Assembly (NCBI GenBank): GCA_021783515.1
Contig: JAJXTV010000001.1
Location: forward strand, 124,001 to 188,000
Origin: Nitrospirota bacterium
GTDB lineage: Bacteria > Nitrospirota > Thermodesulfovibrionia > Thermodesulfovibrionales > UBA6898
Reading direction: 5' to 3'
DNA length: 64,000 nt
Positions 1-21,625 of this stretch are shown one piece after another (position 1 is the stretch's first letter; each line of letters opens with the position of its first letter). The position numbers and the translations under genes are program-made. The notes under the pieces were generated by a model. The model did not search any database, was not told where the DNA came from, and saw nothing but the letters and a program-made list of their open reading frames with translations.

Positions 1-2112
1 CGGACAGACGAGTTGAGGGTGGCCGCCGAACTCTCCTCCGAGGTTTTCAGGGGCGACCTCGCGCTGGAAGACATCATCGAGCGCTTCCTCCGCGCCATAA
101 CAGACGAGTTGGGCTATGGCTACGCTTCGCTCTGTCTTGTCGACAGGGAAACGGGACTTCTCTCCCATGAATTCAAGAAGGGCGGCGGCGAGGGGTTCTG
201 CGCGATGGGGATCCTGCTCTCGGACGAGCATCCCCTCACAAAGACGATCCGCGAGGCGGTGCCCTCGGTCAAAAGGGCTGAGGAACTCGGGGCGTCCTCT
301 TCTGACGCCAATGTCGCGGTCGTTCCGATACTGTCCCGACAAAGGAGAAGGTGCAGGGATATCAACCTCTGCCGGCACGAAACCTGCCCCGCGTTTTTCG
401 CCGATGACGACAGGTGCTGGCTGATAGACGGCACCCTCTGCCGGAGCCCCCAGTCGGTCGCAGGGAAAGACAAGATTTGCGGGTGTCTCCATTGCCCGGC
501 ATTTCCGGTCCTCGGGGTGCTGATCGCCGGCAGGGGGGAGGAGATCGGTGCTACCTCCCTGCATTCCTTCGAGGTCCTCGCCTCCGAACTGGCTTCTGCG
601 ATGGAAAATCAGAACTTCATCGAGGCGAAGAAGGCCGATATCTCAAAGCTCGTGCGGTTGCACGACGTGTCTGTCGGGTCTCTGCAGAGCCCCGGCGGCG
701 ATCTGGAACATATCATCGTCACGTCCGCGTTGGCCTTTTCGAACGCAGACGCCGCGGTCCTGTGGCGCCTCTGGAAGGACGGAATGCTGCATCCTGCGGA
801 TTCGGCGGGAATCGATCCGGGCCAGGTCCCCTCGCCGCTGCGGCCTGACGATTCCTTTGTCGGCAGGGCGTTCTCGGAAGGAGGGGCAGAAACCGTCGAG
901 ATGCAGGAAGTAAAGGGGTTGGAAGATATGATCAGGGGGCATGGCTTCCTGTATGCCGCCTCAATTCCGCTTACCTTCAAGGATACCGCCCTTGGCTGTC
1001 TGACGCTGTTCAGGAAATCGGATTTCCCCATGAACGACTCCGAAAGGGCGATCATCCTGCTGTTTGCAAGCCAGGCCGCGGCGGCGATGAACACCATGCA
1101 GATATACAACGAGCTGAAGACCGAGAAGGAATTTTCGGATGCTATCTTCTCCTGCGCGTCAAGCGGCATCATGGTCCTGGACGGGGACGGCCGCGTCCTG
1201 AAGATGAACGCCGTCGGTGCGGAGATCCTCCGGGTGGATGCCGGTGACGCCGTCGGGCAAAAGATAACCGGGATATATCCGGAAATGGAGGATATGCGTG
1301 CGCTCAGCGAGGGGCTCGGGAGGGAGATGACGATAACCCTTCCGACGGGGGAGGCACTGCCGATCGGCTTCGCCAACTCGCGCCTCTTAGCGTCCGGCGA
1401 CGACGAGAAGGGAGTAATCGTTCTTTTCAGGAATCTGGCCGAGATAAAGAGGCTCCAGGCGGAAGTCCGGAAGAAAGAGCATTTCGCCACGATGGCAAAA
1501 GTGATTTCGGGAGTTGCTCACGAGATACGAAACCCGCTTTTCGGAATATCCTCCATCGGCCAGATACTCGAGCGGGAGCTGGATTCACCCCAGCATAAAG
1601 CGCTGGCGCAGGCGATGCTGAGAGAGTCGGACAGGATGAAGAGGCTCATCGAGGAACTGCTCCTGTACACGAAACCTTCCCGCCTCGAAATAAAAGAGGT
1701 GGACCTGGCAACCCTGTTCGAAGAGCTCGGCCACTACATGAAGGCAAAGAGGGAGGCCCTGTCGCTGTCGATTGCCGTGCCGCCGCTTACGACCATCAAG
1801 GCCGATCCGGACAAGATCACCCAGGTGTTCCTGAACCTTCTCAACAACGCAGTCGACGCCGCCAGAAAAGAAATTCTCCTATCGGCGAGGACATCAGGCA
1901 ACGACGTGGAAGTCCGGATTACGGATGACGGCCCGGGGATCAAAGAGGCAGACCTCGTCAGGGTATTCGACCCTTTCTTCACCACCAAGAAGGGGGGGAC
2001 CGGTCTTGGGCTTCCGATCTGCAAAAAGATCGTCGAAGACCACGGAGCCGCGATCGAGATATTCAGCGGGGAAAACCGGGGAACGACGGTAACGCTCGTA
2101 TTCCGACGCTGA
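1..2112 (+). CDS. sensor histidine kinase (GAF-GAF-PAS-HisKA-HATPase) with inserted two-CW Cys module; 5' partial
   Basis: The frame is open to the window edge and the first candidate start (TTG at 13) has no convincing ribosome site, so the N-terminus probably lies outside. Counting from that TTG: a GAF domain at about 1-180, a second GAF at about 215-365, a PAS-like segment at about 375-480, the H-box (VAHEIRNP) near residue 502, and an ATPase domain with the N-box (NLLNNAVDAA), DDGPG and GGTGLGLP motifs at the C-terminus. There is no transmembrane segment in the visible part, so it is probably cytoplasmic. The first GAF is interrupted at residues 114-161 by a Cys-rich module (Cys 114, 120, 125, 135, 143, 156, 158, 161) that also occurs in the chemoreceptor and in a small protein of the same locus. 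It converges on cheB with a 2-base gap. Its partner regulator is unknown; the NtrC-like protein at 12042-13358 is a candidate. Confidence 0.88.
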   Translation, partial: RTDELRVAAELSSEVFRGDLALEDIIERFLRAITDELGYGYASLCLVDRETGLLSHEFKKGGGEGFCAMGILLSDEHPLTKTIREAVPSVKRAEELGASSSDANVAVVPILSRQRRRCRDINLCRHETCPAFFADDDRCWLIDGTLCRSPQSVAGKDKICGCLHCPAFPVLGVLIAGRGEEIGATSLHSFEVLASELASAMENQNFIEAKKADISKLVRLHDVSVGSLQSPGGDLEHIIVTSALAFSNADAAVLWRLWKDGMLHPADSAGIDPGQVPSPLRPDDSFVGRAFSEGGAETVEMQEVKGLEDMIRGHGFLYAASIPLTFKDTALGCLTLFRKSDFPMNDSERAIILLFASQAAAAMNTMQIYNELKTEKEFSDAIFSCASSGIMVLDGDGRVLKMNAVGAEILRVDAGDAVGQKITGIYPEMEDMRALSEGLGREMTITLPTGEALPIGFANSRLLASGDDEKGVIVLFRNLAEIKRLQAEVRKKEHFATMAKVISGVAHEIRNPLFGISSIGQILERELDSPQHKALAQAMLRESDRMKRLIEELLLYTKPSRLEIKEVDLATLFEELGHYMKAKREALSLSIAVPPLTTIKADPDKITQVFLNLLNNAVDAARKEILLSARTSGNDVEVRITDDGPGIKEADLVRVFDPFFTTKKGGTGLGLPICKKIVEDHGAAIEIFSGENRGTTVTLVFRR

Positions 2113-2114
2113 CG

Positions 2115-3140
2115 CTATGCCTTTGAGAGGATCAGGGCCGCAATCCCCCCCAGCGGCACGATCCTGTCGACCGCCTTCCGTTGGATCGCCGCGCGCGGCA
2201 TGCCGAAGATCGCAGAGGAGGCTTCGTCCTGAGCGATCGTAAACCCTCCGCGGTTCTTTATCTCCGACATCCCTCTGGCGCCGTCAGACCCCATCCCGGT
2301 GAGTAATATCCCTGCTGCGCGTCCCCCGAAATGCCCCGCCACGGAGGAAAAAAGCACGTCGACAGAAGGCCTGTGGATCTCCCCGTCCGGCTCGGGGCTC
2401 AGCCTCACGCGCGGAATCTCCTTCCCCTTGCCGACGGTCATATGGAGTCCGGCCGGAGCTACCAGACATTCGCCGGGAACGATCAGGTCCCCGTCCTCCG
2501 CTTCCTTTACCCGGATTGCGCAGAATGAATCGAGCCTCCTCGCAAGAGGTCCGGTAAAGCCCGGCGGCATATGCTGAACGACGAGTGTCGCAAAGGGGAC
2601 CTCCTTGGGAAATGCGGAAAGGAGGGTCTGAAGGGCCATGGGACCGCCCGTTGAGGCCCCGACCGCCGCGACATCGATAAGCCCCCCCTCGCCGGGGCAT
2701 ATGAGGACCCCGCCGGAGCGAACATCCTTCCCCTGGACCGGCCTGCCGCCGGCAATCGTCGTCACCTTTTCGACGATCTCCCTCGCGAGATCCAGGAAAT
2801 CCATCATCCCGGTCGACGACTTGTCCACAAAGTCCATCGCTCCCAGCTCAAGCGCCTTCAGGGTGAGGTCCGCCCCCCGCTTCGTAAATTGGGAGAGCAT
2901 CAGCACCGGGGTCGGCCGCTCCTGCATGATCGCCTTCAGCGTATCGATCCCGTCCATCCCGGGCATGTTGATATCGAGCGTCACCACGTCCGGCTTCAGC
3001 GAGATCACCTTTTCGATCGCCTCCGCACCCGTGGAAGCGACGCCCGCCGCCTCGATGCCGGGCGACGCCTCGAAGATCCGGATGAGGGCCTTCCTTACGA
3101 AAGAAGAATCGTCAACGATAAGGACCCTGATGCTACCCAT
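2115..3140 (-). CDS. cheB: chemotaxis response regulator protein-glutamate methylesterase CheB
   Basis: 341 residues, the usual CheB length. An N-terminal receiver domain has Asp10/Asp11 and the phospho-acceptor Asp56 (LDINMP). The C-terminal methylesterase domain has the catalytic triad positions Ser163 (GASTGG), His190 (VVQHMPP) and Asp286 (TGMGSDG). It removes methyl groups from, or deamidates, glutamyl residues of the chemoreceptor, opposing CheR. The start overlaps the end of the HEAT-repeat gene by 8 bases, which suggests translational coupling, and it is the last gene of the chemotaxis run. Confidence 0.96.
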   Translation of the reverse strand: MGSIRVLIVDDSSFVRKALIRIFEASPGIEAAGVASTGAEAIEKVISLKPDVVTLDINMPGMDGIDTLKAIMQERPTPVLMLSQFTKRGADLTLKALELGAMDFVDKSSTGMMDFLDLAREIVEKVTTIAGGRPVQGKDVRSGGVLICPGEGGLIDVAAVGASTGGPMALQTLLSAFPKEVPFATLVVQHMPPGFTGPLARRLDSFCAIRVKEAEDGDLIVPGECLVAPAGLHMTVGKGKEIPRVRLSPEPDGEIHRPSVDVLFSSVAGHFGGRAAGILLTGMGSDGARGMSEIKNRGGFTIAQDEASSAIFGMPRAAIQRKAVDRIVPLGGIAALILSKA

Positions 3141-4257
3141 CTGTCCCGAGCCGGGAAAGGCTCCTCCGGGCCGCCAGCCTCACTTCCTCATGGTCGTCCC
3201 CGAGCATCTCGTTGAGGATGCGATATGCCCTCTCCATCCGGAGAGAGCCGAGCGCCAGCGCCGCTTCAGTCCTCACCTCTGGGTCTTCGTCCCCGGCAAA
3301 CTGCAGGAGGGCCATCGGCTCTCCGATCATCGACAATACCTTTGCCAGGATCGGTCTATGCCCCCCGCAGGCCCCCTTCATCTCGTCGATGATGCCACAG
3401 ACCGCTCTTCTACCGATGCCGAGCAGCCCTTCGATCGCGTATTCCTGAAGCTCTTCGTCCCTGACGCCTTCGAGCAGGAACGACATTGCCGCCATATCGT
3501 CAGACCAGCTCAACGCCATGAAGGCATACTTCTTCGTCTCCTCGTCCTTCGAACCGAGCATTCCGACCAGCATCGGGACGAGGCTGAGAAAATACTCCGG
3601 ACTGGGCCTGACCCCCTCCCGTTCCGCAATCCCGATAATGGCCCTCAGTGCCCGTTCCCTGAGTCCGGGCTCCGAAAAGCAGGCGGTAAGATGGCGGATG
3701 GAGTCCCTGCCGCCCGCCTTTTCTATGGCGAGGATAGCCACCTCCGGGTATATCCGTTTGTCGAGACATTCGTAAAGCATACTGAGCGCCGCCTCTCCGC
3801 CGATGCCTCCCAATGAGTTGACCGCGGCCATCGCGACCCACGGTTCGTCGGCCAGGGCCTCCCTCAGCGCCCCCACCGCCCTTTCGTCACAGCCGCCGAG
3901 CGCCTCGGCTGCGGCGCAGCGGACATTCACATCGGGGTCCCGGAGCGCGCCAGCCAGCAGGGGAAGAGAACTCCGGTCACGGATCTCGCAGAGGATATTC
4001 ACCGTGAAGAGCCTCACCTCGGGGTCCCCGTCCCGGATCAGCGAAGAAAGAGACTGGAGCGCCCTCGCCCCCAGCGCACGGTAGACCTCCATGGCCGAGT
4101 TCCGGACATCCGCGTCCTCATGGTTTCTGATGCCCTCCTCAAGATACGCCACATATTCGGTCCCGGGGCGCGCGATGAGGGCGGAGATTATCTCCTGCCT
4201 GCCCCACCAGTCTTTCGACGGCAGTTCTTTAAGGAGCTGACTTACCTCCTTTACCAT
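3133..4257 (-). CDS. HEAT-repeat protein in chemotaxis operon
   Basis: 374 residues made almost entirely of tandem helical HEAT-like repeats of about 30 residues, with recurrent 'D.dpeVR..Aa.aLg' signatures (for example DPDVNVRCAAAEALG and DPEVRTEAALALG). There is no signal peptide, membrane segment or catalytic motif. HEAT solenoids are protein-interaction scaffolds. It lies between cheR and cheB with overlaps of 7 and 8 bases, so it is expressed with them and probably binds a chemotaxis component. The partner cannot be named from sequence. A short conserved N-terminal segment (KDWWGRQE) precedes the repeats. Confidence 0.85.
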   Translation of the reverse strand: MVKEVSQLLKELPSKDWWGRQEIISALIARPGTEYVAYLEEGIRNHEDADVRNSAMEVYRALGARALQSLSSLIRDGDPEVRLFTVNILCEIRDRSSLPLLAGALRDPDVNVRCAAAEALGGCDERAVGALREALADEPWVAMAAVNSLGGIGGEAALSMLYECLDKRIYPEVAILAIEKAGGRDSIRHLTACFSEPGLRERALRAIIGIAEREGVRPSPEYFLSLVPMLVGMLGSKDEETKKYAFMALSWSDDMAAMSFLLEGVRDEELQEYAIEGLLGIGRRAVCGIIDEMKGACGGHRPILAKVLSMIGEPMALLQFAGDEDPEVRTEAALALGSLRMERAYRILNEMLGDDHEEVRLAARRSLSRLGTDG

Positions 4258-5135
4258 ATCGCAGCCTCCTTGTCGCCTCTCTCTCCGTGCTTCCGGTAGA
4301 CGATAATGCCGTCCACGTATTCCGGCGCAAAACGGTTCGTCTTCTGGATAAGACTTTCGGACGTGCCGACAAAGAGATATCCGATATCGTCGAGGCAGTC
4401 GGCAAAATTCCTGACGATCCGCTCCGTTGCTTCATCGCTCATGTAGATCAGCACGTTCCGGCAGAATATCACGTCGACCGGCGCCAGTCCTGTAAAAGCG
4501 CCCGGATCGAGGATATTGCCGTGCCTGAAGGCGATGTTCTTCCGATAAAACTTCCTCAACACGTACCGGTCGTTATCGAGAATAAAATACCGTTTCAGCA
4601 TCTCCGCATTTCCGTTGAGCGACCTGAACGAGTTCCGGGTGTATGTGGCCTCCTCCGCCTTCCTGATGGAGTTCCGGTTGATGTCGATTCCCGTTATCAT
4701 CACGTCCCAGTCCCACGCGAAAAGCCCGCTCTCCTGAAGCACGACATTCAGGGTATAGGCTTCCTCGCCGCTCGAAGAGGCGACCGACAATATCCGCAGC
4801 CGGTTCTGCCCCCGCCGCTGCTTCTCTTTCTTGATCTCTTTCAGCAGACTCGAAAAAGCATCGAGCTGCACTTTTTCCCTGAAGAAATAGGTCTCGTTGT
4901 TCGTGATATGCGAGGCGAGAGTGGAAAGCTCCTCCTTCGAGGGGTCCGAAAGAATAAAGTCATAGTAGTCACGGTAGGTGGCCAGGCCGAGGATCTCCAG
5001 CCTGTGCGAGACCCGCGCGTGCAGCATCAACCTCTTGTCGCCCTTCAGCAGGATGCCGAGCTCCCTCCGGACAAGGTCCTTCAGGAGAGCGAAGTCTTCC
5101 TCGGTCATCACGTTGCTCTTCATATGCAGTCCCAT
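4251..5135 (-). CDS. cheR: chemotaxis protein methyltransferase CheR
   Basis: 294 residues. The N-terminal all-alpha CheR domain (residues about 10-70, with the DKRLMLHARVSHRL segment) is followed by a SAM-dependent methyltransferase domain: SVASSSGEEAYTL is the SAM-binding motif, and DVIFCRNVLIYM is the conserved CheR motif. It methylates glutamates in the receptor signalling domain using S-adenosylmethionine. ATG at 5135 is used; Met5 and Met10 are alternatives. It lies 128 bases downstream of the receptor gene and overlaps the HEAT gene. There is no fused TPR domain. Confidence 0.95.
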   Translation of the reverse strand: MGLHMKSNVMTEEDFALLKDLVRRELGILLKGDKRLMLHARVSHRLEILGLATYRDYYDFILSDPSKEELSTLASHITNNETYFFREKVQLDAFSSLLKEIKKEKQRRGQNRLRILSVASSSGEEAYTLNVVLQESGLFAWDWDVMITGIDINRNSIRKAEEATYTRNSFRSLNGNAEMLKRYFILDNDRYVLRKFYRKNIAFRHGNILDPGAFTGLAPVDVIFCRNVLIYMSDEATERIVRNFADCLDDIGYLFVGTSESLIQKTNRFAPEYVDGIIVYRKHGERGDKEAAIW

Positions 5136-5263
5136 GAACTACCAGCCCCTTCGGCCCTGTTGGAGAAGGCACCGCGTATTTCCCCCCTCCGGAGCCGCCG
5201 GCGATAACACAAGCATATCCTCTCCCCGCCTGCCATGCAAGCGCAACGGTCCCGGGGCGGGCA

Positions 5264-7633
5264 TCACCCCGCGATGCCCTGAATAACCTTGAACGCCTCG
5301 CAGGTCATGCAGTTCCTGAGCTTCGACCGTGCGTCGCCCTGCTGGGCGCCCTTGCACCAGGTCCCGGCAATGAGCCAGCAGCGGTCTTCGCCGCTGTTGA
5401 ATGCGGGGCATTTCTGCCGGGAATGAGAGGGACAGCCCAGTATGTCCCAGCAGCGCTGGTTGCCGTTCGAATGGATCCTGAAGCCGCTGATCGAATACTG
5501 GAGGTTTTCTATCTGAAACAGCGTGTCTTCCGCCACGCCGACCATCTCTTTCGACAATCTGAGGTTCTCCCCCGAGATATGGCTCATGCCTTCCATCGCC
5601 CTCACGATCGTCTCGCCCCCGAGTTTCTGCTCCGCCGAGGCGTTGGCGACGCTCTGGGTCATGTCGTGCATAATCTCGACCGCCTGCACGATCTGTTTGG
5701 TGCCGCCGACCTGCTCCTTCACCGCAACGCCGACCTCGTACACCACGTTTTTCATCCGTTCCACCACTTCCCTGATCTGCCGGCCGCCTATTGATTGCTC
5801 TTTCGCGGCGGCGTTGACCTCCTGCACCATCCGATTCATCCTCTCGAGGGAAAGCCGGATATCATCCGCCCCCGAGGCCTGGCCCTGAACCGCAGCGGCG
5901 ACCTGCTCGGTGGACGAATTCATCTCCACGACAAACTTCATCACCTGCTCGATCGCTTTATCAAGCTCCGACGCCGACCGCGAGATCCCGCGAATCACCT
6001 CCGAGCTTTCCTTCATCGAGGCGATAATCCCGGTGAAGGCGTCCCTGCTGCTTTCAGCGAGCGCAATGCCGCCCCTTCCCTCGCGATAGGTTTCCTCCGT
6101 CGCCTTTATGGCGGTCTCGGTCTCGCTCTGCACCTGCTTGATCACCCCTCCGATCTCCTTCGTCGCCTCCATCGAACGCTCCGCAAGCTTCCGGATTTCT
6201 TCGGCGACCACCGCAAACCCCCTGCCGGCATCTCCGGCCCGGGCCGCCTCGATCGCCGCATTGAGGGCAAGCAGGTTCGTCTGGTCCGCGATCTCGTCGA
6301 TCACCTCGACGATCGAGCCGATGTCCTCGGAACGCTTGCCAAGGTTCTGAATGAGGGTCATCGTCCTTTCCGTCGTCTTCCCGATATTCTGGAGGCTCTC
6401 GATGCTTTGGTAGATCGCCTTCCCCCCTTCTTCGGCCTCGCTGAAGGCGTCCTGGCTCAATTTGTTCGCACCCCCGATCCTGGCCGCAACCTCCTTTACC
6501 GTCCTCGTCATCTCCTCTATCGTGCCGGAGGTCTCCATCACCATCCCCCTGAAAGATTCGGTGTTCTTGGAGATCTGCTCGATGGAAGAAAGAAGGTTCT
6601 CGACCGTCAGCGAAGTCTCGCTCACCGCCTCGGTCATCCGTCCTGAATTCTTCGCGGTCTGCTCGACCGACACAATCATCTGCTCGATCGTCGAGGAGGT
6701 CTCGCCGACCGAGGCGGCCATCACTTCCGCACTCTTGCCGACCTGCTCGATAGAGGCGGCCATTTCGCCGATCGTCGCCGAGGTCTCGTCGACATTCGAG
6801 GCGAGGGCCTCGGTGTTCTTGGCTACCTGGGAGATGGACGCCGCCATCTCTTCCATGGAAGAGGTGGTCTCGTCGGTTGCCGCCGCCTCCTCCTGCGCAG
6901 ACAAGGCGATCTGGCCGGAGCCCTTTGCGACCCTGTCGGCCGCCGTGACAACATGAAACGATGATGCGACCACGTCATGCAGGATACCCTTGAGATTCGA
7001 TGCCATCATGTCGATCGTCCTGCCGAGGGATGATATCTCGTCCTTTCCCCCGACCGCAAGACCGGTCGTCAGGTCCCCCGACGCGATCTTCCCCGATGCC
7101 TTTTCGAGGCGCTCGAGCGGCTTTATAATGATCCGTTCCACCAGCATCTTCATGCCGAATGCGAACAGGACGATGGCTGCCGCGATACCGACGAGCATGA
7201 TCACGAGATTCTTCCGCAGGTTGTCCGAAACGGCCTTCTTGTTGAACCCTATCTTCAGACGGCCCAGAGGCAGCCCGCTTTCGCCGACGATCTTCCGATC
7301 GAGCACCCTGAAGGAAGGTCCGATATCCGCCGGCTCCTTTGTCAGCGGTTTGTTTTCCGTATCATAGAAGACGGCAAAGTCCACCGCCGGCTCCCGCATC
7401 GCCTCCTTCACAAGGTTATCAAGCGCGATGTAGTCAAAATTCGCGTACGATGGGACGCTTATCTTGGCCATGAAGTCCGCAGTCGAGTCGGCCTTGGTTT
7501 CCACCATCCGCGTCATGGCAGAAATGTTGTTGATCGCCATAAACGTCCCGAGAAGGGAAAGAAGCAGGACGGTGAGCAAAAGCATCGGCACGATAAATTT
7601 TGTCCGTACGTTGCTAAAATGAAACAGCGTCAT
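5264..7633 (-). CDS. methyl-accepting chemotaxis protein with extended coiled coil and C-terminal two-CW module
   Basis: 789 residues. TM1 is at about 12-35; a short periplasmic sensor follows to about 148; TM2 is at about 148-170; HAMP is at about 170-225. A very long signalling helical hairpin has the conserved tip ([18 protein letters not shown]). The descending arm contains five consecutive units of exactly 28 residues (beginning [50 protein letters not shown]). The ascending arm contains matching 28-residue units (beginning [30 protein letters not shown]). The C-terminus (residues about 728-778) is a two-CW module with Cys in the order [27 protein letters not shown] at 7633. It is flanked by the binding-protein gene upstream and cheR downstream, so it is likely the main receptor of this array. 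Confidence 0.95.
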
Positions 7634-7681
7634 CTCTACCCCCTTGGCCGGTGAGAAAAAACGCCCCGGCGAAACCAGTTA

Positions 7682-8536
7682 TTAATATTTGAAATCAAAG
7701 GACTTCGTGACGCCTGCTCTCTTGAGGAGCGGAAGCGTATGCCTGAAATCCGCTTTTGTCGTCTTGATAAATCCCTGAATGCCGAGTTTCTCCTTCGCCG
7801 CGCGCGCCTCGGCAGAGGTATCACCTTTTATAGAAAGCAGCGCCGCCGAGATCTCACCTGAGGTCTTCGGGTCGGCCTTTGTCGACACCATCAGGGTAGA
7901 GTCCGGGTTTTCCCCCTTGTCCTCTCCGACCTTTTCGAGACCGGGATACTCTCCCGCCTTCTTGTCCCAGATCCGGTCCTTCACGATCGCCACGTCCGCA
8001 GCTCCCCTCGCAAGGACGTCGAGCGCGGCCCCGTGGGAGGCGGCGATCATAACGTGGGCATTCACGTCCCTGATCTTCGGGATCGAGTAATAGTAGAATT
8101 CTCCCGAAGACGCCAGGGCGGTTAATATCACCTTTTTGCCGCTGAAGTAGCCTGCCGAGCCGGTGAATTTGGCCGATCCCTTCGGCGCGATGATGTCCGC
8201 CCAGTACGTGCTGTAACCCTCGGTCGATTCGGGCCTTACGGAAGGAACGGCAAGGCCCTTTATTATCAGGGTGCCGGCGACCCCCGAACCGCTGAACATC
8301 GCGTCCGCCTCTCCTGCCGCAAACATCTTCGCTGCGGTTGTATAATTCGGCGCGCCGACAAGGCTAACGTCAACGCCTTTCTTCTGCAGATATGTCAGCA
8401 GCGGCCGATATTTCTCCGCGGCCCCTTTGTCGTCCTGCATGATGACGATCCTGAACCCTGCCGCCCTCGCATAGGCGGACAGAAGAAAGATCGCGCATAC
8501 CATGAGTGCCGCGCACGCCAGACTCCTTGTCTTCAT
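7682..8536 (-). CDS. periplasmic PhnD-like substrate-binding protein
   Basis: 284 residues from the ATG at 8536, which is preceded by a strong ribosome site (AGGAGG); an upstream in-frame start at 8602 would add residues before the signal peptide and overlap the two-CW gene. The N-terminus is a Sec signal peptide (MKTRSLACAALMVC, cleavage near ARA-A). The mature part matches the PhnD/phosphonate-binding (transferrin-like) fold: an early FRIVIMQDD strand, GEADAMFSGSG and a GAADVAIVKD segment near the C-terminal lobe. No permease or ATPase genes are adjacent; the neighbours are chemotaxis genes. I infer that it delivers a ligand signal to the receptor at 5264-7633 rather than feeding a transporter. 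The ligand is unknown. Confidence 0.85.
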   Translation of the reverse strand: MKTRSLACAALMVCAIFLLSAYARAAGFRIVIMQDDKGAAEKYRPLLTYLQKKGVDVSLVGAPNYTTAAKMFAAGEADAMFSGSGVAGTLIIKGLAVPSVRPESTEGYSTYWADIIAPKGSAKFTGSAGYFSGKKVILTALASSGEFYYYSIPKIRDVNAHVMIAASHGAALDVLARGAADVAIVKDRIWDKKAGEYPGLEKVGEDKGENPDSTLMVSTKADPKTSGEISAALLSIKGDTSAEARAAKEKLGIQGFIKTTKADFRHTLPLLKRAGVTKSFDFKY

Positions 8537-8579
8537 AGCTCTTCCTCCTTTATCCTTACGGTCCTCGCGACAGACCGCT

Positions 8580-8789
8580 TCACATCGTCTTTTCGACGAC
8601 AAGTTTTTGATAAAAATCGCATTCCCGGCAGTTGTGTATCTTCAACGCATATTGCCCCTGCACCTTGCCGCCGCACATCGTGCCGGCCACGAGGTAGCAT
8701 ACCCGCCCCCCTTTCGGGTAAGCAGGACACTCTCCGACGGCCTCCTGGCCGCACTTCTTGAATTCCCAGCAGTTAGTCCTCTTTTCCAT
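8580..8789 (-). CDS. small two-CW domain protein
   Basis: 69 residues, almost entirely one Cys-rich module: NCWEFKKCG, ECPAYP, VCYLVAGTMC, NCRECDFY. Seven Cys align with the modules in the histidine kinase and in the receptor tail of this locus. ATG at 8789 has an AGGAGG ribosome site lying inside the cheW 3' end; the two genes overlap by 17 bases. Proteins of this kind are annotated as two-CW domain proteins; Cys pairs of this spacing suggest a metal or redox site, but that is inference. There is no signal peptide. Confidence 0.88.
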   Translation of the reverse strand: MEKRTNCWEFKKCGQEAVGECPAYPKGGRVCYLVAGTMCGGKVQGQYALKIHNCRECDFYQKLVVEKTM

Positions 8790-9315
8790 GACTGCCTCCT
8801 TCGCCGGTCAGGCTGCCGACCTCGAGGGCATCACGCTTCAGGAGTCTCTCGAGATCGAGCAGGATAACGAGCCGGTCTTTCAGTTTTCCAACGCCCGTGA
8901 TATAGTCGGTGTCCACCTCGAGCACTTCCTCGGGCGGCGACTCCACGCTCTCCGGGGGCATCTTGACTACGTGGGACACCCCGTCCACAAGCAGTCCTAT
9001 CACTGTGTCCCCCACCTCGGTCACGATGATCCTGGATGCCTTGCTCGGCTCTTTCCCCGCGAGTCTGAGTCTTTTTCTCAGGTTCAGGACCGGCAGGACC
9101 CTCCCCCTGAGATTGATGACGCCGTCCATGTAGGAAGGAGAATTGGGCACCTTCGTAACGCCGCTGACACGGATAATCTCCTGCACCTGGTGGATCGGGA
9201 CGCCGTATTCCTCTCCGAGGGTAAAGGTGACGAGATGATGCTCGCGCCTCTTTTCCCGGTAAAGCGGAAGGATATCTTCGGCAAGTCCCGACGCCGGAAG
9301 TTGGATCTCGGACAT
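8773..9315 (-). CDS. cheW: chemotaxis coupling protein CheW
   Basis: 180 residues from ATG at 9315, 5 bases after the cheA stop; a longer open frame reaches back into cheA, but its N-terminal extension is Arg-rich and unlike CheW. The CheW SH3-like fold is recognisable: LVTFTLGEEYGVPIHQVQEI, then the conserved PNSPSYMDGVINLRG motif and VIGLLVDGVSHV. It bridges receptor and CheA in the signalling array. The C-terminus overlaps the two-CW gene. Confidence 0.95.
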   Translation of the reverse strand: MSEIQLPASGLAEDILPLYREKRREHHLVTFTLGEEYGVPIHQVQEIIRVSGVTKVPNSPSYMDGVINLRGRVLPVLNLRKRLRLAGKEPSKASRIIVTEVGDTVIGLLVDGVSHVVKMPPESVESPPEEVLEVDTDYITGVGKLKDRLVILLDLERLLKRDALEVGSLTGEGGSHGKED

Positions 9316-9320
9316 ATCGC

Positions 9321-10997
9321 TCACACCCCCTCTTCGCCGCAGTCGAAGGCCCGGTCGACGGGGGGGCACCCGACACCGGCCGGACCACCATTGGTGCGGT
9401 CTATGGTTTCTCTCCAGAACGCCGTGACATCGGCGATCAGGACGATCCTGCCGTCACCCAGTATGGATGCGCCCGCCACCCCGTAAGATTTCCCGAACGT
9501 CTCATCGAGCGGCTTTATGACGATCTCCTGCCGCCCGCGAAGCCGGTCAACCGCCACGGCGAGCTTTTTTTCGGCCCTGCTGAGGACGATTAGATAGAAT
9601 GTTTCCCTTCGTCGGCATCCGATATGGAAAAAATCCCCGAGCCTGACGACCGGGACGACCTTGTCCCTGAACTCGACCACCTCATGATTGTTGATCATGT
9701 GGATGTCCTCACCTTTGACCTTGATGCTCTCGTCGACGGCGCTCATCGGTATCGCGTAAACCTCTTCTCCCGCTTCTACCATCAGGGCCGGGATGATCGC
9801 AAGACTGAGGGGCAGTTTGATCGTAAAGACGGTTCCTCCCCCTGCTGTGCTGTCGACGGCGATCTGGCCGCCGAGCTTGCCGATCTTCCTGATGACCACA
9901 TCGAGCCCCACCCCCCTGCCGGAGAGGTCCGTCGCCTCATCCTTCGTCGAGAGCCCCGCCGAGAAGATGAGGGACTTGAGCGTCTCCTTGTCCGGGGTCT
10001 CGTCAGGCAGGAGAAGGCCCCGCTCGACCGCCGCAGCCTTCACTCTTCCCATATCGATGCCCCTGCCGTCGTCGCTCACCCCGACGATCACATAATTGGA
10101 TTCCTGGCCGGCCGAAAGGGTGATAGTGCCGCGGCGTTTTTTGCCCCGCTTCACCCGCTCTTTCGGATCTTCCATCCCGTGGTCGACCGCATTTCGTATC
10201 AGGTGGAGAAGCGGCTCTTCGAGTTCGTCGATCACGGTTTTGTCGAGTTCCGTCTCCTCTCCCTTGAAGACCAGCTCGACCTCTTTCCCTTGCGTGCGGG
10301 AGAGGTCCCTCACCATCCGGGGATACTTGCCGAAGACATTAAGCACCGGAAGCATCCTCGCCCTCATGATGCCTTCCTGGAGTTCGGCGATCGTCTTGCC
10401 CATCGACTCGAGACCCTCCTGCAGTTCCCTCGCCAGGGGTTTATTCCCGCCGGTCCCACGCATCCGGGTCCCGATCTGGTTCAGCCTGGTCTTGTTGATG
10501 ACGAGCTCTCCCACGAGATTCAGGAGGTCGTCGAACCTCTTGAAATCGACCTTGATGGTATCCGTCTTCGCGCCGAGATACGCAAAGAGGTCCACATCTT
10601 TTCGCCTGCCCTCTCCTGCCTCGCCCCTCAGACACTCCTGAATCGCCAGGATATGCGCGGTGAGATCGGGCCGGCCGGCGGGATCGGCGGCAACCGAGCG
10701 GAGGACCTCCCTCATGGCGGTGACGCTGTCGAAGAGCGCATCCATCACCCTATCGATCTGGACCTTTTCTTCAGCGACGCCTTTGAGCACCTCTTCGATG
10801 TTGTGCACGTAGTCCTTCATCGAGTCGAACCCCATCATGCCGGAATTGCCCTTCAGCGTATGAAGAGGCCCCATCATATCCATGATGACCTCTTTGCGGA
10901 AGCCGTTTTGCTCGATCGAAAGGAGCGCGCTGTCGAAAAGACCGAGATGCGTCTCGGCGTCGTCCAGAAAATCCCGCAGAAGCTCGGAGTATTCCAC
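9321..10997 (-). CDS. cheA: chemotaxis histidine kinase CheA
   Basis: 558 residues, shorter than enterobacterial CheA. P1 (Hpt) carries the phospho-accepting His46 (PLHTLKGNSG). No P2 CheY-binding domain can be seen before the P3 dimerisation helices (DDLLNLVGELVINKTRL). P4 is the ATPase (HLIRNAVDHGME, DDGRGID, GRGVGLDVV), and P5 is the CheW-like domain ending near residue 540. The start is GTG at 10997, immediately after the cheY stop codon, so translation is probably coupled. Lack of P2 is common in compact CheA proteins and may mean direct P1-CheY transfer. Confidence 0.96.
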   Translation of the reverse strand: MEYSELLRDFLDDAETHLGLFDSALLSIEQNGFRKEVIMDMMGPLHTLKGNSGMMGFDSMKDYVHNIEEVLKGVAEEKVQIDRVMDALFDSVTAMREVLRSVAADPAGRPDLTAHILAIQECLRGEAGEGRRKDVDLFAYLGAKTDTIKVDFKRFDDLLNLVGELVINKTRLNQIGTRMRGTGGNKPLARELQEGLESMGKTIAELQEGIMRARMLPVLNVFGKYPRMVRDLSRTQGKEVELVFKGEETELDKTVIDELEEPLLHLIRNAVDHGMEDPKERVKRGKKRRGTITLSAGQESNYVIVGVSDDGRGIDMGRVKAAAVERGLLLPDETPDKETLKSLIFSAGLSTKDEATDLSGRGVGLDVVIRKIGKLGGQIAVDSTAGGGTVFTIKLPLSLAIIPALMVEAGEEVYAIPMSAVDESIKVKGEDIHMINNHEVVEFRDKVVPVVRLGDFFHIGCRRRETFYLIVLSRAEKKLAVAVDRLRGRQEIVIKPLDETFGKSYGVAGASILGDGRIVLIADVTAFWRETIDRTNGGPAGVGCPPVDRAFDCGEEGV

Positions 10998-11411
10998 CTA
11001 TGTGGCCTTCATTTCCGTCAGGAAGGGCGGCTTTTTCGCCAGGACCTTGTCGATCAACTCATAAAGCATGTGGGGCTTGAAGGGCTTCACTACATAGCCC
11101 CACGCCCCGAGCTTCAACGCCCGCAGGGTGTCCTCCTCCCTCCCTTCGGTGCTGATCACCACGATCGGAGTCTGTCGGTAGATGTTCTCCTTCTTCAGTT
11201 TCTCCATAAACTGGATGCCGTTCATTACCGGCATATTGATATCGAGGAGAATAAGATCGAAATTATTCTCCCGCGAAAGGATATCCAGGGCTTCCAGTCC
11301 GTTCATCGCGTCAAAGATCTTGCACCCCTCATAGCGGTTCAGCACCAGCCGGTACATCGAATGGATCAACTGGGAATCGTCCACTATCAGCAACTTTTGT
11401 AACTCGGGCAT
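10998..11411 (-). CDS. cheY: CheY-type response regulator
   Basis: 137 residues from the ATG at 11411, which has an AGGAGG ribosome site; the longer open frame overlaps the upstream receiver gene and its extra N-terminus is not receiver-like. A single receiver domain: acidic pair Asp11/Asp12, phospho-acceptor Asp57 (LILLDINMP), Thr/Ser switch region (VVISTEG) and Lys109 (VVKPF). No output domain, so it acts by binding a partner (flagellar switch or, more likely given the pilus genes in the window, a twitching motor). Confidence 0.92.
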   Translation of the reverse strand: MPELQKLLIVDDSQLIHSMYRLVLNRYEGCKIFDAMNGLEALDILSRENNFDLILLDINMPVMNGIQFMEKLKKENIYRQTPIVVISTEGREEDTLRALKLGAWGYVVKPFKPHMLYELIDKVLAKKPPFLTEMKAT

Positions 11412-11439
11412 GTCTCCTCCTGTTCTGCCTTCGTTCGTT

Positions 11440-11835
11440 TCAAGTTTTTGCGCTCTGCGCAGGCGGCAGCGTGATCCCGAGGGGCTCGACCCTCGAAACG
11501 AGGTCCCCGATATCGATCGGCTTCTCGTAGTAGTGATAAGCCCCGCGCCGGTAGGCATCGTCCCTCAACTCATCAGAACCGTACGCCGTCATGATGATCA
11601 CTTCAGTCGAAGGGCTCTTTCCCTTTATAAAACTAAGCAGTTCGAGCCCCTCGATCCCGTACATGCCGCTCATCCGGATGTCGGCGATCACAAGGTCGAA
11701 CGTATATCGGGAAAGCGCCTCCTCCGCCTCTTCAATCCTGCTGCTGGTAATGACGACGTTCTCCCTGCCGCTCAGCAGATGCGACAGTGTCAGCAAGATC
11801 GTCGGCTCATCGTCGACTATCAATATCTTCTTCAT
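11440..11835 (-). CDS. single-domain response regulator receiver protein
   Basis: 131 residues. Receiver domain with Asp8/Asp9, phospho-acceptor Asp52 (LVIADIRMSG) and Lys105 (YYEKPID). The MYGIE segment after the acceptor is shared with the NtrC-like regulator encoded next to it, suggesting common ancestry or a common kinase. The C-terminal tail is short and has no DNA-binding domain. It lies 28 bases upstream of cheY and about 200 bases downstream of the NtrC-like gene. Confidence 0.88.
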   Translation of the reverse strand: MKKILIVDDEPTILLTLSHLLSGRENVVITSSRIEEAEEALSRYTFDLVIADIRMSGMYGIEGLELLSFIKGKSPSTEVIIMTAYGSDELRDDAYRRGAYHYYEKPIDIGDLVSRVEPLGITLPPAQSAKT

Positions 11836-12008: not shown

Positions 12009-12043
12009 GACCGGAATCCGGACGGACTGTCCGGTTATCGGTC
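12009..12043 (-). terminator. possible hairpin at the end of the NtrC-like gene
   Basis: The inverted repeat GACCG...CGGTC encloses CCGGAC/GTCCGG with a 5-base loop, overlapping the stop codon. A U-rich stretch follows only after about 12 bases, so it may be an attenuating or mRNA-stabilising hairpin rather than a full terminator. The remaining part of the gap 11836-12041 contains no visible gene. Confidence 0.35.
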
Positions 12044-13358
12044 AGTTCAGTCTGTAGGCTTTGATTTTCTCGCTGAGGGTGGAGCGGGCGACGCCCAGCA
12101 GTTGGGCGGCCTTCGTCCTGTTACCGGCCGTCAGCCTGAGCACATTCTCGATATGCGTCTTTTCGACCGCCGTCAGCGTCAGGGGGTTCCCGCCCGGGGG
12201 CCGTTCCGTGCAGAGCGACAGACATTTCGCCGGGATGTCCCCCTGCGGGCTGAGAATCGCCGCGCGTTCCACCGCGTTTCTCAGTTCCCTCACATTTCCC
12301 GGCCAGGAGTATGCGCAGAGCTGCTCAACGGCGTCCGGCGCCAGCCCTCCGATCTCCCTCCGGCCCAGACCCTTCTTGATCTCATCGAGCAGAAACGCCG
12401 CGATAAGAGGGATGTCTTCGGGGCGTTCCCGGAGGGGAGCCACCGTCAGGGGAATCACGTTCAAACGGTAAAAAAGGTCTTCCCGGAATGCGCCTTCTCT
12501 CACCAGCCGCTCCAGGTCCCGGTTGGTAGCTGCGAGAACGCGCACGTCCACGCCGATATCGCGGGTTCCGCCGAGCCTCTTCAGGGACCTGCTCTCGAGA
12601 ACCCGCAGGATCTTCGCCTGGGCGCTTCGGGGCATGTCACCGATCTCGTCCAGAAAAAGCGTACCCCCGTCGGCAAGCTCGAAAAGCCCCTTCTTCGTCT
12701 TCTTTGCATCCGTAAACGCCCCCGATTCGTATCCGAAGAGCTCGCTCTCGACGATATCGGCAGGTATCGCCGCGCAGTTGATGTCCACAAAGGGCTTGCC
12801 GGCCCTGGCGCTGAGGGCGTGGATATTGCGCGCCACAAGCTCTTTGCCGGTCCCTGTCTCCCCCTGTATCAGCACCGTCGTCATCGGGTTGGAGGCGAGC
12901 AGGTGTATCATATGGATCAGTCCCTGCGTCTGTCTGCTTCTGCCCACTATGGGATACGGAGATTCCCTGCGAAGCACCGCCTCCTGGCGTATCTGCTTGA
13001 TGCCAAGGCTCTTTTCGACCACAACCGCCAGCTGATCGAGGTCTACCGGCTTCTGAAAATAATATTCGGCCCCGAGTTTCATCGCCCTGACCGCCTCCTC
13101 CACCTCGCCGTATCCCGTCATCACGATAACGGATATCTCCGGATAATCTGCCTTGATCGCCTCGAGGATCTCTATGCCGTACATGTCGGGCAGCCTCAGG
13201 TCGAGAAGGATGGTATCGGGAATCTCTTTGAGGGCTATGTCGAGTCCCTGCCGTCCGAGTTCGGCCGTCATGACTCCGTACCCTTTGCTCTCGAAGAAGA
13301 CCCTGAGACTGAGAGATATGTTTTCGTCGTCTTCTATAACCAGAAGAAGAGGCTTCAC
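12042..13358 (-). CDS. NtrC-family sigma-54-dependent response regulator
   Basis: 438 residues. The receiver domain has Asp10/Asp11, phospho-acceptor Asp53 (LLDLRLPD) and Lys103. The AAA+ central domain has Walker A GETGTGKE at about 166-173 and Walker B GTLFLDEIGD. The C-terminal Fis-type helix-turn-helix is NRTKAAQLLGVARSTL. The sigma-54 contact loop reads GAFTDA (213-218) where the consensus is GAFTGA. The start overlaps the nrdR stop in an ATGA arrangement. It activates sigma-54 promoters; one strong candidate site in this window lies upstream of the pilin gene at 63283-63798, though no evidence links the two. Confidence 0.94.
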   Translation of the reverse strand: MKPLLLVIEDDENISLSLRVFFESKGYGVMTAELGRQGLDIALKEIPDTILLDLRLPDMYGIEILEAIKADYPEISVIVMTGYGEVEEAVRAMKLGAEYYFQKPVDLDQLAVVVEKSLGIKQIRQEAVLRRESPYPIVGRSRQTQGLIHMIHLLASNPMTTVLIQGETGTGKELVARNIHALSARAGKPFVDINCAAIPADIVESELFGYESGAFTDAKKTKKGLFELADGGTLFLDEIGDMPRSAQAKILRVLESRSLKRLGGTRDIGVDVRVLAATNRDLERLVREGAFREDLFYRLNVIPLTVAPLRERPEDIPLIAAFLLDEIKKGLGRREIGGLAPDAVEQLCAYSWPGNVRELRNAVERAAILSPQGDIPAKCLSLCTERPPGGNPLTLTAVEKTHIENVLRLTAGNRTKAAQLLGVARSTLSEKIKAYRLN

Positions 13359-20557: not shown

Positions 20558-21625
20558 ATGGACATCGCCACCTTCACACAAATTCTTGAAATCGCCTTCG
20601 AAAAAAGGGTCTCCGATATCCATTTCGAGGTCGACACCCCCCCGCTTTTCAGGGCGCGCGGGCATCTGATCCACTCGAAGCTGAGCGCGCTGACGCCCCA
20701 GGACACCCAGTTTATCGCCTCCACCGTCATGGAGCAGCACGGCCGCAAGCTTCCGGAAGACCTGAAGGAGCTCGACACCTCATACACCCTGCCGAACGTC
20801 GGCCGATTCCGGGTGAGCGTCTTCCGGCAGCGGGGCAATGTCGGCCTGGTTATGAGGGTAATCCCCCATCATATCGGCACCTTCCAGGAGCTGAACCTCC
20901 CGCCGGTGCTCGGCACCATCACAAAGGCCGCAAACGGGCTGATCCTTGTCTGCGGTCCGACGGGTAACGGCAAGTCGACGACCATCGCCTCGATGATCCG
21001 GCATATCAACGATAATTTCAATTACAACGTAATCACGATCGAGGACCCGATCGAATTCATCTTCCACTCGAACAAGAGCTGCATCATCCAAAGAGAGCTG
21101 GGCATCGACACCGACAGTTTCGGAGGGGCCTTGAAGTCGGCGATGCGGATGGACCCGGACGCGATCATGGTCGGAGAGATGCGCGACCTCGACACGATCG
21201 ACGCCTGTGTGAAGGCCGCCGAAACCGGCCATCTCGTCCTGTCGACGCTCCATACGCACAGCGCGGCGTCGACCATCAACCGTATCGTCGGGTATTTCCC
21301 CCCCCAGACCCAGGAGAACATCCGCCAAAGGCTGGCCGAGATCCTCGTGGCCACGGTGTCGCTGAGGCTGGTCCGCGGCAAGAGCGCGGAAATCGTACTG
21401 CCGGCGATGGAGGTAATGTACGCCACCTCCACGATAAAGGCCTGCATCCGGGACGGCCACCTCGATGAAATCGAATCCCACATAGAAAAGGGGCGTGACG
21501 AATACCAGATGCAGACGCTCGACCAGCACCTGATCCAACTCTGCAGGCAGGACGTTATTGCGCTCGATGAGGCGAAGAGGATCTCCCGGTCCTCGGACCT
21601 CGAGAGGAAACTGATCTACTACTGA
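20558..21625 (+). CDS. PilT/PilU-type twitching motility ATPase
   Basis: 355 residues. Hexameric type II/IV secretion ATPase fold: N-terminal SDIHFE motif, Walker A GPTGNGKST at 133-141 (Asn where most PilT have Ser), Asp box VITIEDPIEF, Walker B GEMRDLDTI, His box GHLVLSTLHTHSA. Length and domain order fit PilT/PilU, the pilus retraction motors. The C-terminal AIRNLIRE motif of classical PilT is not evident, so PilU-like or a variant is possible. ATG with AAGGGGG ribosome site. Likely works with the pilins at 37772 and 63283. Confidence 0.9.
   Translation: MDIATFTQILEIAFEKRVSDIHFEVDTPPLFRARGHLIHSKLSALTPQDTQFIASTVMEQHGRKLPEDLKELDTSYTLPNVGRFRVSVFRQRGNVGLVMRVIPHHIGTFQELNLPPVLGTITKAANGLILVCGPTGNGKSTTIASMIRHINDNFNYNVITIEDPIEFIFHSNKSCIIQRELGIDTDSFGGALKSAMRMDPDAIMVGEMRDLDTIDACVKAAETGHLVLSTLHTHSAASTINRIVGYFPPQTQENIRQRLAEILVATVSLRLVRGKSAEIVLPAMEVMYATSTIKACIRDGHLDEIESHIEKGRDEYQMQTLDQHLIQLCRQDVIALDEAKRISRSSDLERKLIYY

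Follow-up and report, generated by a model that had tools for sequence, protein, structure and literature searches.

The window, by which we mean the whole 64,000-nucleotide stretch of a Nitrospirota MAG analyzed here, begins with a chemosensory locus in which genes for CheA, CheW, CheR, CheB and a chemoreceptor (MCP) lie together with those for an NtrC-type regulator and a histidine kinase. Three of its proteins contain a seven-cysteine module, hereafter 2CW: the kinase within its first GAF domain (GAF1), the receptor at its C-terminus, and a protein of 69 amino acid residues that consists of the module on its own. The features of the locus, identified by domain searches unless stated otherwise, are as follows:

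13..2112, plus strand: membrane histidine kinase, visible part (GAF1 with nested 2CW, GAF2, PAS, HisKA, HATPase)
334..528 (core 376-504), plus strand: 2CW module nested in kinase GAF1 (profile matches; AlphaFold model; Foldseek)
2115..3140, minus strand: CheB (receiver and methylesterase)
3133..4257, minus strand: HEAT-repeat protein, kept beside cheR in orthologous loci (Pfam; synteny)
4251..5135, minus strand: CheR methyltransferase
5264..7633, minus strand: MCP with a periplasmic sensor lacking a Pfam match, HAMP, MCP signalling domain and C-terminal 2CW
5267..5470, minus strand: receptor C-terminal 2CW module (NF045718, 39.6 bits; alignment)
7682..8602, minus strand: PhnD-like periplasmic solute-binding protein, an exchangeable receptor companion (other genes in relatives)
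8580..8789, minus strand: stand-alone 69-residue 2CW protein (NF045718, 67.5 bits; same-position orthologues 72-83% identical)
8773..9369, minus strand: CheW
9321..10997, minus strand: CheA (Hpt, dimerisation, HATPase, CheW-like)
10998..11558, minus strand: CheY-like receiver, true start probably internal
11440..11835, minus strand: second single-domain receiver (open reading frame; kept in orthologous loci)
12042..13358, minus strand: NtrC-type sigma54 response regulator (open reading frame; kept in orthologous loci)

The open reading frame of the small 2CW protein overlaps those on both sides. The kinase gene begins approximately 770 bp upstream of the window, within an open frame of 960 residues whose upstream part codes for TM1, a periplasmic CHRCH (heme-c motif), TM2 and HAMP, the transmembrane segments having been assigned by reading of the sequence. 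The frame remains open through TM1 and contains no ATG, GTG or TTG ahead of it (L009:3230-3436, just upstream of the window); a rare ATC start codon preceded by GGGAG is likely. The CxxCH motif is found in 13 of the 13 kinases long enough to include the periplasmic region, and this region gave a weak match of 24.7 bits, below the Pfam cut-off of 27, to PF21563, a family that we take to cover the c-heme periplasmic sensors of the Geobacter MCPs GSU0935 and GSU0582. Another histidine kinase of the same genome (L015:4009-5826) combines a periplasmic CxxCH motif with a C-terminal 2CW, and kinases of this type, whose modules form a well-supported group (HKct), recur in many Nitrospirota and in other genomes.

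An earlier note on this DNA spoke of a chemotaxis locus. The che genes are indeed present, but the term is loose: FlhA (PF00771) was not found in this 98.7%-complete genome, which argues against flagellar chemotaxis. Since PilT-family ATPases are encoded in the genome, one of them at 20558-21625 of the window, several kb from the che genes, the locus may act on type IV pili or, through NtrC, on transcription. Elsewhere in the window, between 48000 and 58000, the G+C content drops from approximately 0.58 to 0.43, possibly marking an acquired region.

Relation of the modules to the two-CW family

Profile searches identified NCBIfam NF045718, the “two-CW domain”, as the family of these modules, with its seven ordered cysteines and its CPA[FY], CW and GTxC motifs. 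Against a curated cut-off of 35 bits, the 69-residue protein scores 67.5 bits (E 1e-18) and the receptor C-terminus 39.6 bits (E 5e-10), and both fit the family, whereas the kinase copy differs in that it scores 21 bits (E 0.0012) and is nested in a GAF fold. Judged by its sequence, the kinase copy is a divergent homologue rather than a formal member of NF045718. The seven cysteines align in all three modules of the window, and a profile of short-class modules recovered the modules of orthologous kinases, which were outside the set used to build it. The earlier statement that one module occurs three times in the locus is borne out by this alignment and by the profile E-values, and profile searches relate the copies to one another.

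Over 112 modules, six cysteines are invariant (112/112) and the seventh is found in 110, whether the module belongs to a receptor, a kinase, a cyclase or a receiver or stands alone; one further loss was seen in the kinase of locus L054. The alignment contains no conserved histidine. No Pfam family matches the 69-residue protein or the receptor C-terminus, and none represents the module. We found no paper mentioning either “two-CW domain” or NF045718 in the open-access literature, where the family is at present a database name without a described function.

The claim that the kinase module lies inside a GAF domain holds by fold and not by Pfam, which recognizes GAF2 only and gave no GAF match in kinase region 1. 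The AlphaFold model of this region (pLDDT 82.5, pTM 0.82; locally lower, about 63-71, in the module) was matched by Foldseek to GAF structures, with a best E value of 2e-5, and in this model the module is placed between the last two strands of GAF1 (strand 310-333, module, strand 508-534). Among 14 orthologous kinase GAF1 regions, 15 columns are invariant, six of which are module cysteines. For the 69-residue protein, the AlphaFold model reached a pLDDT of 81 and a pTM of 0.66 (other models, 60-70). Because Foldseek returned no PDB fold relative for it, the cysteine geometry and the metal cannot be read from a relative; the sequence profile of the module likewise matched no solved structure up to E 10. 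A tree of the modules joined those of kinase and receptor as sisters (SH-aLRT 99); this grouping was left unused because a tree forcing the kinase with the small modules was not rejected (p-AU 0.64), and with 70 columns the tree cannot place the kinase module nearer to either.

Conservation of the locus and exchange of the receptor sensor

Orthologous loci were collected as eight Nitrospirota loci by similarity to the small protein, to which further loci from the order were added, several of them cut by contig ends. By sequence comparison, several families of the order share the locus, and the retained gene order runs from NtrC through the second receiver, CheY, CheA, CheW, the small 2CW protein, a companion if present, the MCP with its 2CW, HEAT, CheR and CheB to the convergent kinase with its GAF-nested 2CW. 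Some loci are short of one element. The small gene is absent from three (L163, L164, L168), and the small protein was not found in genomes G011 and G017, the receptor module being kept in all of these. Two loci (L165, L166) retain the kinase, HEAT, receivers, NtrC and CheA and have no MCP; in L161 the kinase adjoins cheR and cheB only; and in L168 no module was detected in the kinase while both MCPs have one.

Compared with those of the window, the small proteins of relatives are 72-83% identical, the receptor modules 61-82% and the receptor signalling regions 58-78%, and the kinase modules of relatives are 46-75% identical. On the contrary, the receptor sensors share only 18-31% identity with that of the window, the exception being L053 (65%). 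They belong to unrelated Pfam families, namely CZB (L048, L055, L158), Cache (L052) and 4HB (L164), and are unassigned in the window and L053. The companion gene varies as well: a PhnD-like binding protein (window; L053 by similarity), PBP_like_2 (L162, L163), rhodanese (L054), or none. This exchange of the periplasmic sensor among unrelated folds, while the modules are kept, is newly described here, as is the conservation of the locus. It argues that 2CW belongs to the signalling core rather than serving one external ligand, and therefore speaks against the shared ligand of the earlier note if an external one is meant.

Among 27 genomes of the bacterium's family, 8 encode the receptor module (identity of 65% or more) and 10 the kinase, among them every genome with the receptor module; the small protein (identity of 72% or more) occurs in 5, all within these 8 and never without the receptor. 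Fisher tests gave p 2e-5 for kinase and receptor and p 7e-4 for small protein and receptor, the 27 genomes being related and not phylogenetically independent. Together with the conservation of the trio in place, this co-inheritance sustains the functional link among the modules that the earlier note had suggested.

We also considered that the three modules could be functionally unrelated, each a copy of a common signalling accessory domain acquired separately and found together by chance. Such a coincidence is compatible with the 12 copies detected in the genome (E <= 0.01), with the wide use of 2CW in histidine kinase, diguanylate cyclase (DGC), receiver, MCP and Ser/Thr-kinase contexts, and with a module tree that does not securely join the kinase module to the others. 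Yet random placement would bring three of 12 copies within 8.4 kb with p ~0.005, and neither the trio conserved in relatives and inherited together nor the pairing of copies in archaea described below is what chance would predict. We consider this explanation improbable.

Distribution of 2CW outside the locus

The earlier emphasis on this one locus goes too far, for the module occurs widely and forms part of signalling proteins of many types. The nine copies of the genome that lie beyond the locus include the histidine-kinase C-terminus mentioned above (L015), a diguanylate cyclase (L017), more stand-alone proteins and, at approximately 100-150 residues, members of a longer class. Two long-class genes lie on opposite strands in L013:4461-5243, their matches about 150 bp apart, and genomes G001 and G004, from the same genus, have similar opposite-strand pairs. 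In other organisms, architectures include 2CW-receiver, 2CW-PAS-kinase, 2CW between HATPase and receiver, and 2CW-cNMP-Ser/Thr kinase. A match was found in 41 of 99 genomes of the phylum of a Desulfobacterales MAG (L087). In a Humidesulfovibrio histidine kinase (L207:4220-6262), 2CW sits inside the HAMP linker: Pfam HAMP matches the first half (positions 2-27 of 53), followed by the module and then the second amphipathic helix.

In archaea, all three 2CW copies of a Ca. Methanoperedens genome (two MCP C-termini and one stand-alone) fall within 13 kb, where CheW genes are also found; CheB, CheA and CheR are encoded further along the same contig. The only two copies of another archaeal MAG are adjacent, an MCP with fused 2CW being followed by a stand-alone gene. 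Each of these archaea has one MCP module 64-66% identical to that of the window over 55-56 residues, while the signalling domains are 31-37% identical. Given that the family occurs in 2 of 120 sampled genomes of the archaeal class, transfer is likely.

Outside the locus family of the window, and with one archaeal locus included, 10 of 43 sampled loci have a signalling gene on the same strand as the stand-alone 2CW gene and no more than 300 nt away from it, against a background of 1.7%. Some stand-alone genes begin 10-17 nt after MCP genes lacking the fusion (L099, L111). In a second recurrent pairing, the stand-alone gene lies directly 5′ of a large histidine kinase gene (L063, L066, L083, L084), and in three of these four loci directly after an NtrC gene. 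An MCP with fused 2CW is the sole copy in genomes G084 and G091, which indicates, together with the losses of the small gene noted above, that the free form is not obligatory.

The position of the receptor module raises another explanation, namely that it takes the place of the C-terminal pentapeptide of E. coli-type receptors and, during adaptation, tethers CheR, CheB or the HEAT protein. It occupies the same position, no NWETF-like pentapeptide was found in the sequence of the receptor end, and the HEAT, CheR and CheB genes directly follow the receptor gene. A tether of this kind is nevertheless very unlikely, for the partner kinase, which is unmethylated, has the same module, and the DGC and histidine kinase copies would have no such need.

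A candidate internal input common to receptor and kinase

We propose, with a probability of roughly 0.45, that 2CW is a metal- or Fe-S-binding module of the cytoplasm through which receptor/CheA and kinase/NtrC share one internal input. The locus would be a chemosensory system of the non-flagellar, Che3-like kind, and its output would run along two arms, one from the receptor through CheW and CheA to CheY, the other consisting of the heme-c membrane kinase and, presumably as its target, the NtrC regulator. We infer a metal or cluster site from cysteines that are near-invariant and cytoplasmic in every architecture. 2CW would fold around a metal or Fe-S center held by these residues and might report an internal condition such as metal supply or redox state; the metal or redox signal suggested in the earlier note fits the conservation of the cysteines. 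The receptor module, sitting where the signalling hairpin ends at its C-terminal side, could then adjust the control of CheA and the kinase module the linkage of GAF to kinase, while the free 69-residue protein would be a trans-acting form, possibly acting on the same complexes. The small protein may be an adaptor, as the earlier note considered; the idea that it is a competitor finds no support.

A purely structural, zinc-stabilized module would be expected to show the same cysteine conservation, and its role could be docking: receptor, kinase and small protein would bind one another or a common partner, for example the HEAT protein, and the kinase would be recruited to the receptor array with no sensing of metal or redox state. 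The coexistence of free and fused forms in one locus and the presence of free copies beside unfused MCP or histidine kinase genes fit a docking pair, and the HEAT protein is conserved in the locus. However, the module also occurs as the single copy of a genome (G084, G091), and its nesting in GAF and in the HAMP linker of L207 suits allosteric input better. We regard docking as somewhat unlikely, although sequence cannot decide between it and sensing.

Known systems resemble the locus or its module in part. In Myxococcus xanthus, the Che3 chemosensory system and a histidine kinase together act on an NtrC-type regulator (CrdS-CrdA; PMC3510030). The resemblance is one of layout, an NtrC regulator and a kinase flanking che genes with no flagellar FlhA found. 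In the locus of the window, the kinase is a heme-c protein with 2CW nested in it, and a free 2CW protein is encoded as well. The Geobacter MCPs GSU0935 and GSU0582 have c-heme periplasmic sensors (PMC3460858), which the periplasmic CxxCH motif recalls; here it is attached to a kinase rather than to an MCP, and the similarity to PF21563 is below the cut-off. CZB, a small cysteine-containing zinc and redox sensor, is found at MCP C-termini, at DGC N-termini and alone, and its zinc site is made of three His and one Cys (PMC8262984, PMC13370339). The placement of 2CW resembles that of CZB, but 2CW has seven cysteines, neither a match to PF13682 (CZB) nor a 3 His + 1 Cys site, and some receptors of the 2CW system carry a separate CZB as periplasmic sensor. 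CZB can be considered the nearest working analogy, not a homologue by the tests made.

In the usual view, a chemosensory array and a two-component kinase each have a signal of their own. Here, one uncharacterized domain is built into a receptor and a kinase and is present as a free copy, and evolution keeps 2CW while replacing the outer sensor of the receptor. We suggest, more tentatively than the common input itself, that 2CW could be a previously unstudied metal- or Fe-S-based cytoplasmic input module of bacteria and archaea, providing the same internal signal to a receptor array and a two-component kinase, with the free form acting between them and the external sensor exchanged freely. The 69-residue protein is small enough for direct testing. 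Should metal or redox state prove to be what 2CW senses, anaerobe-rich lineages and some archaea would have in it an internal input of the CZB kind.
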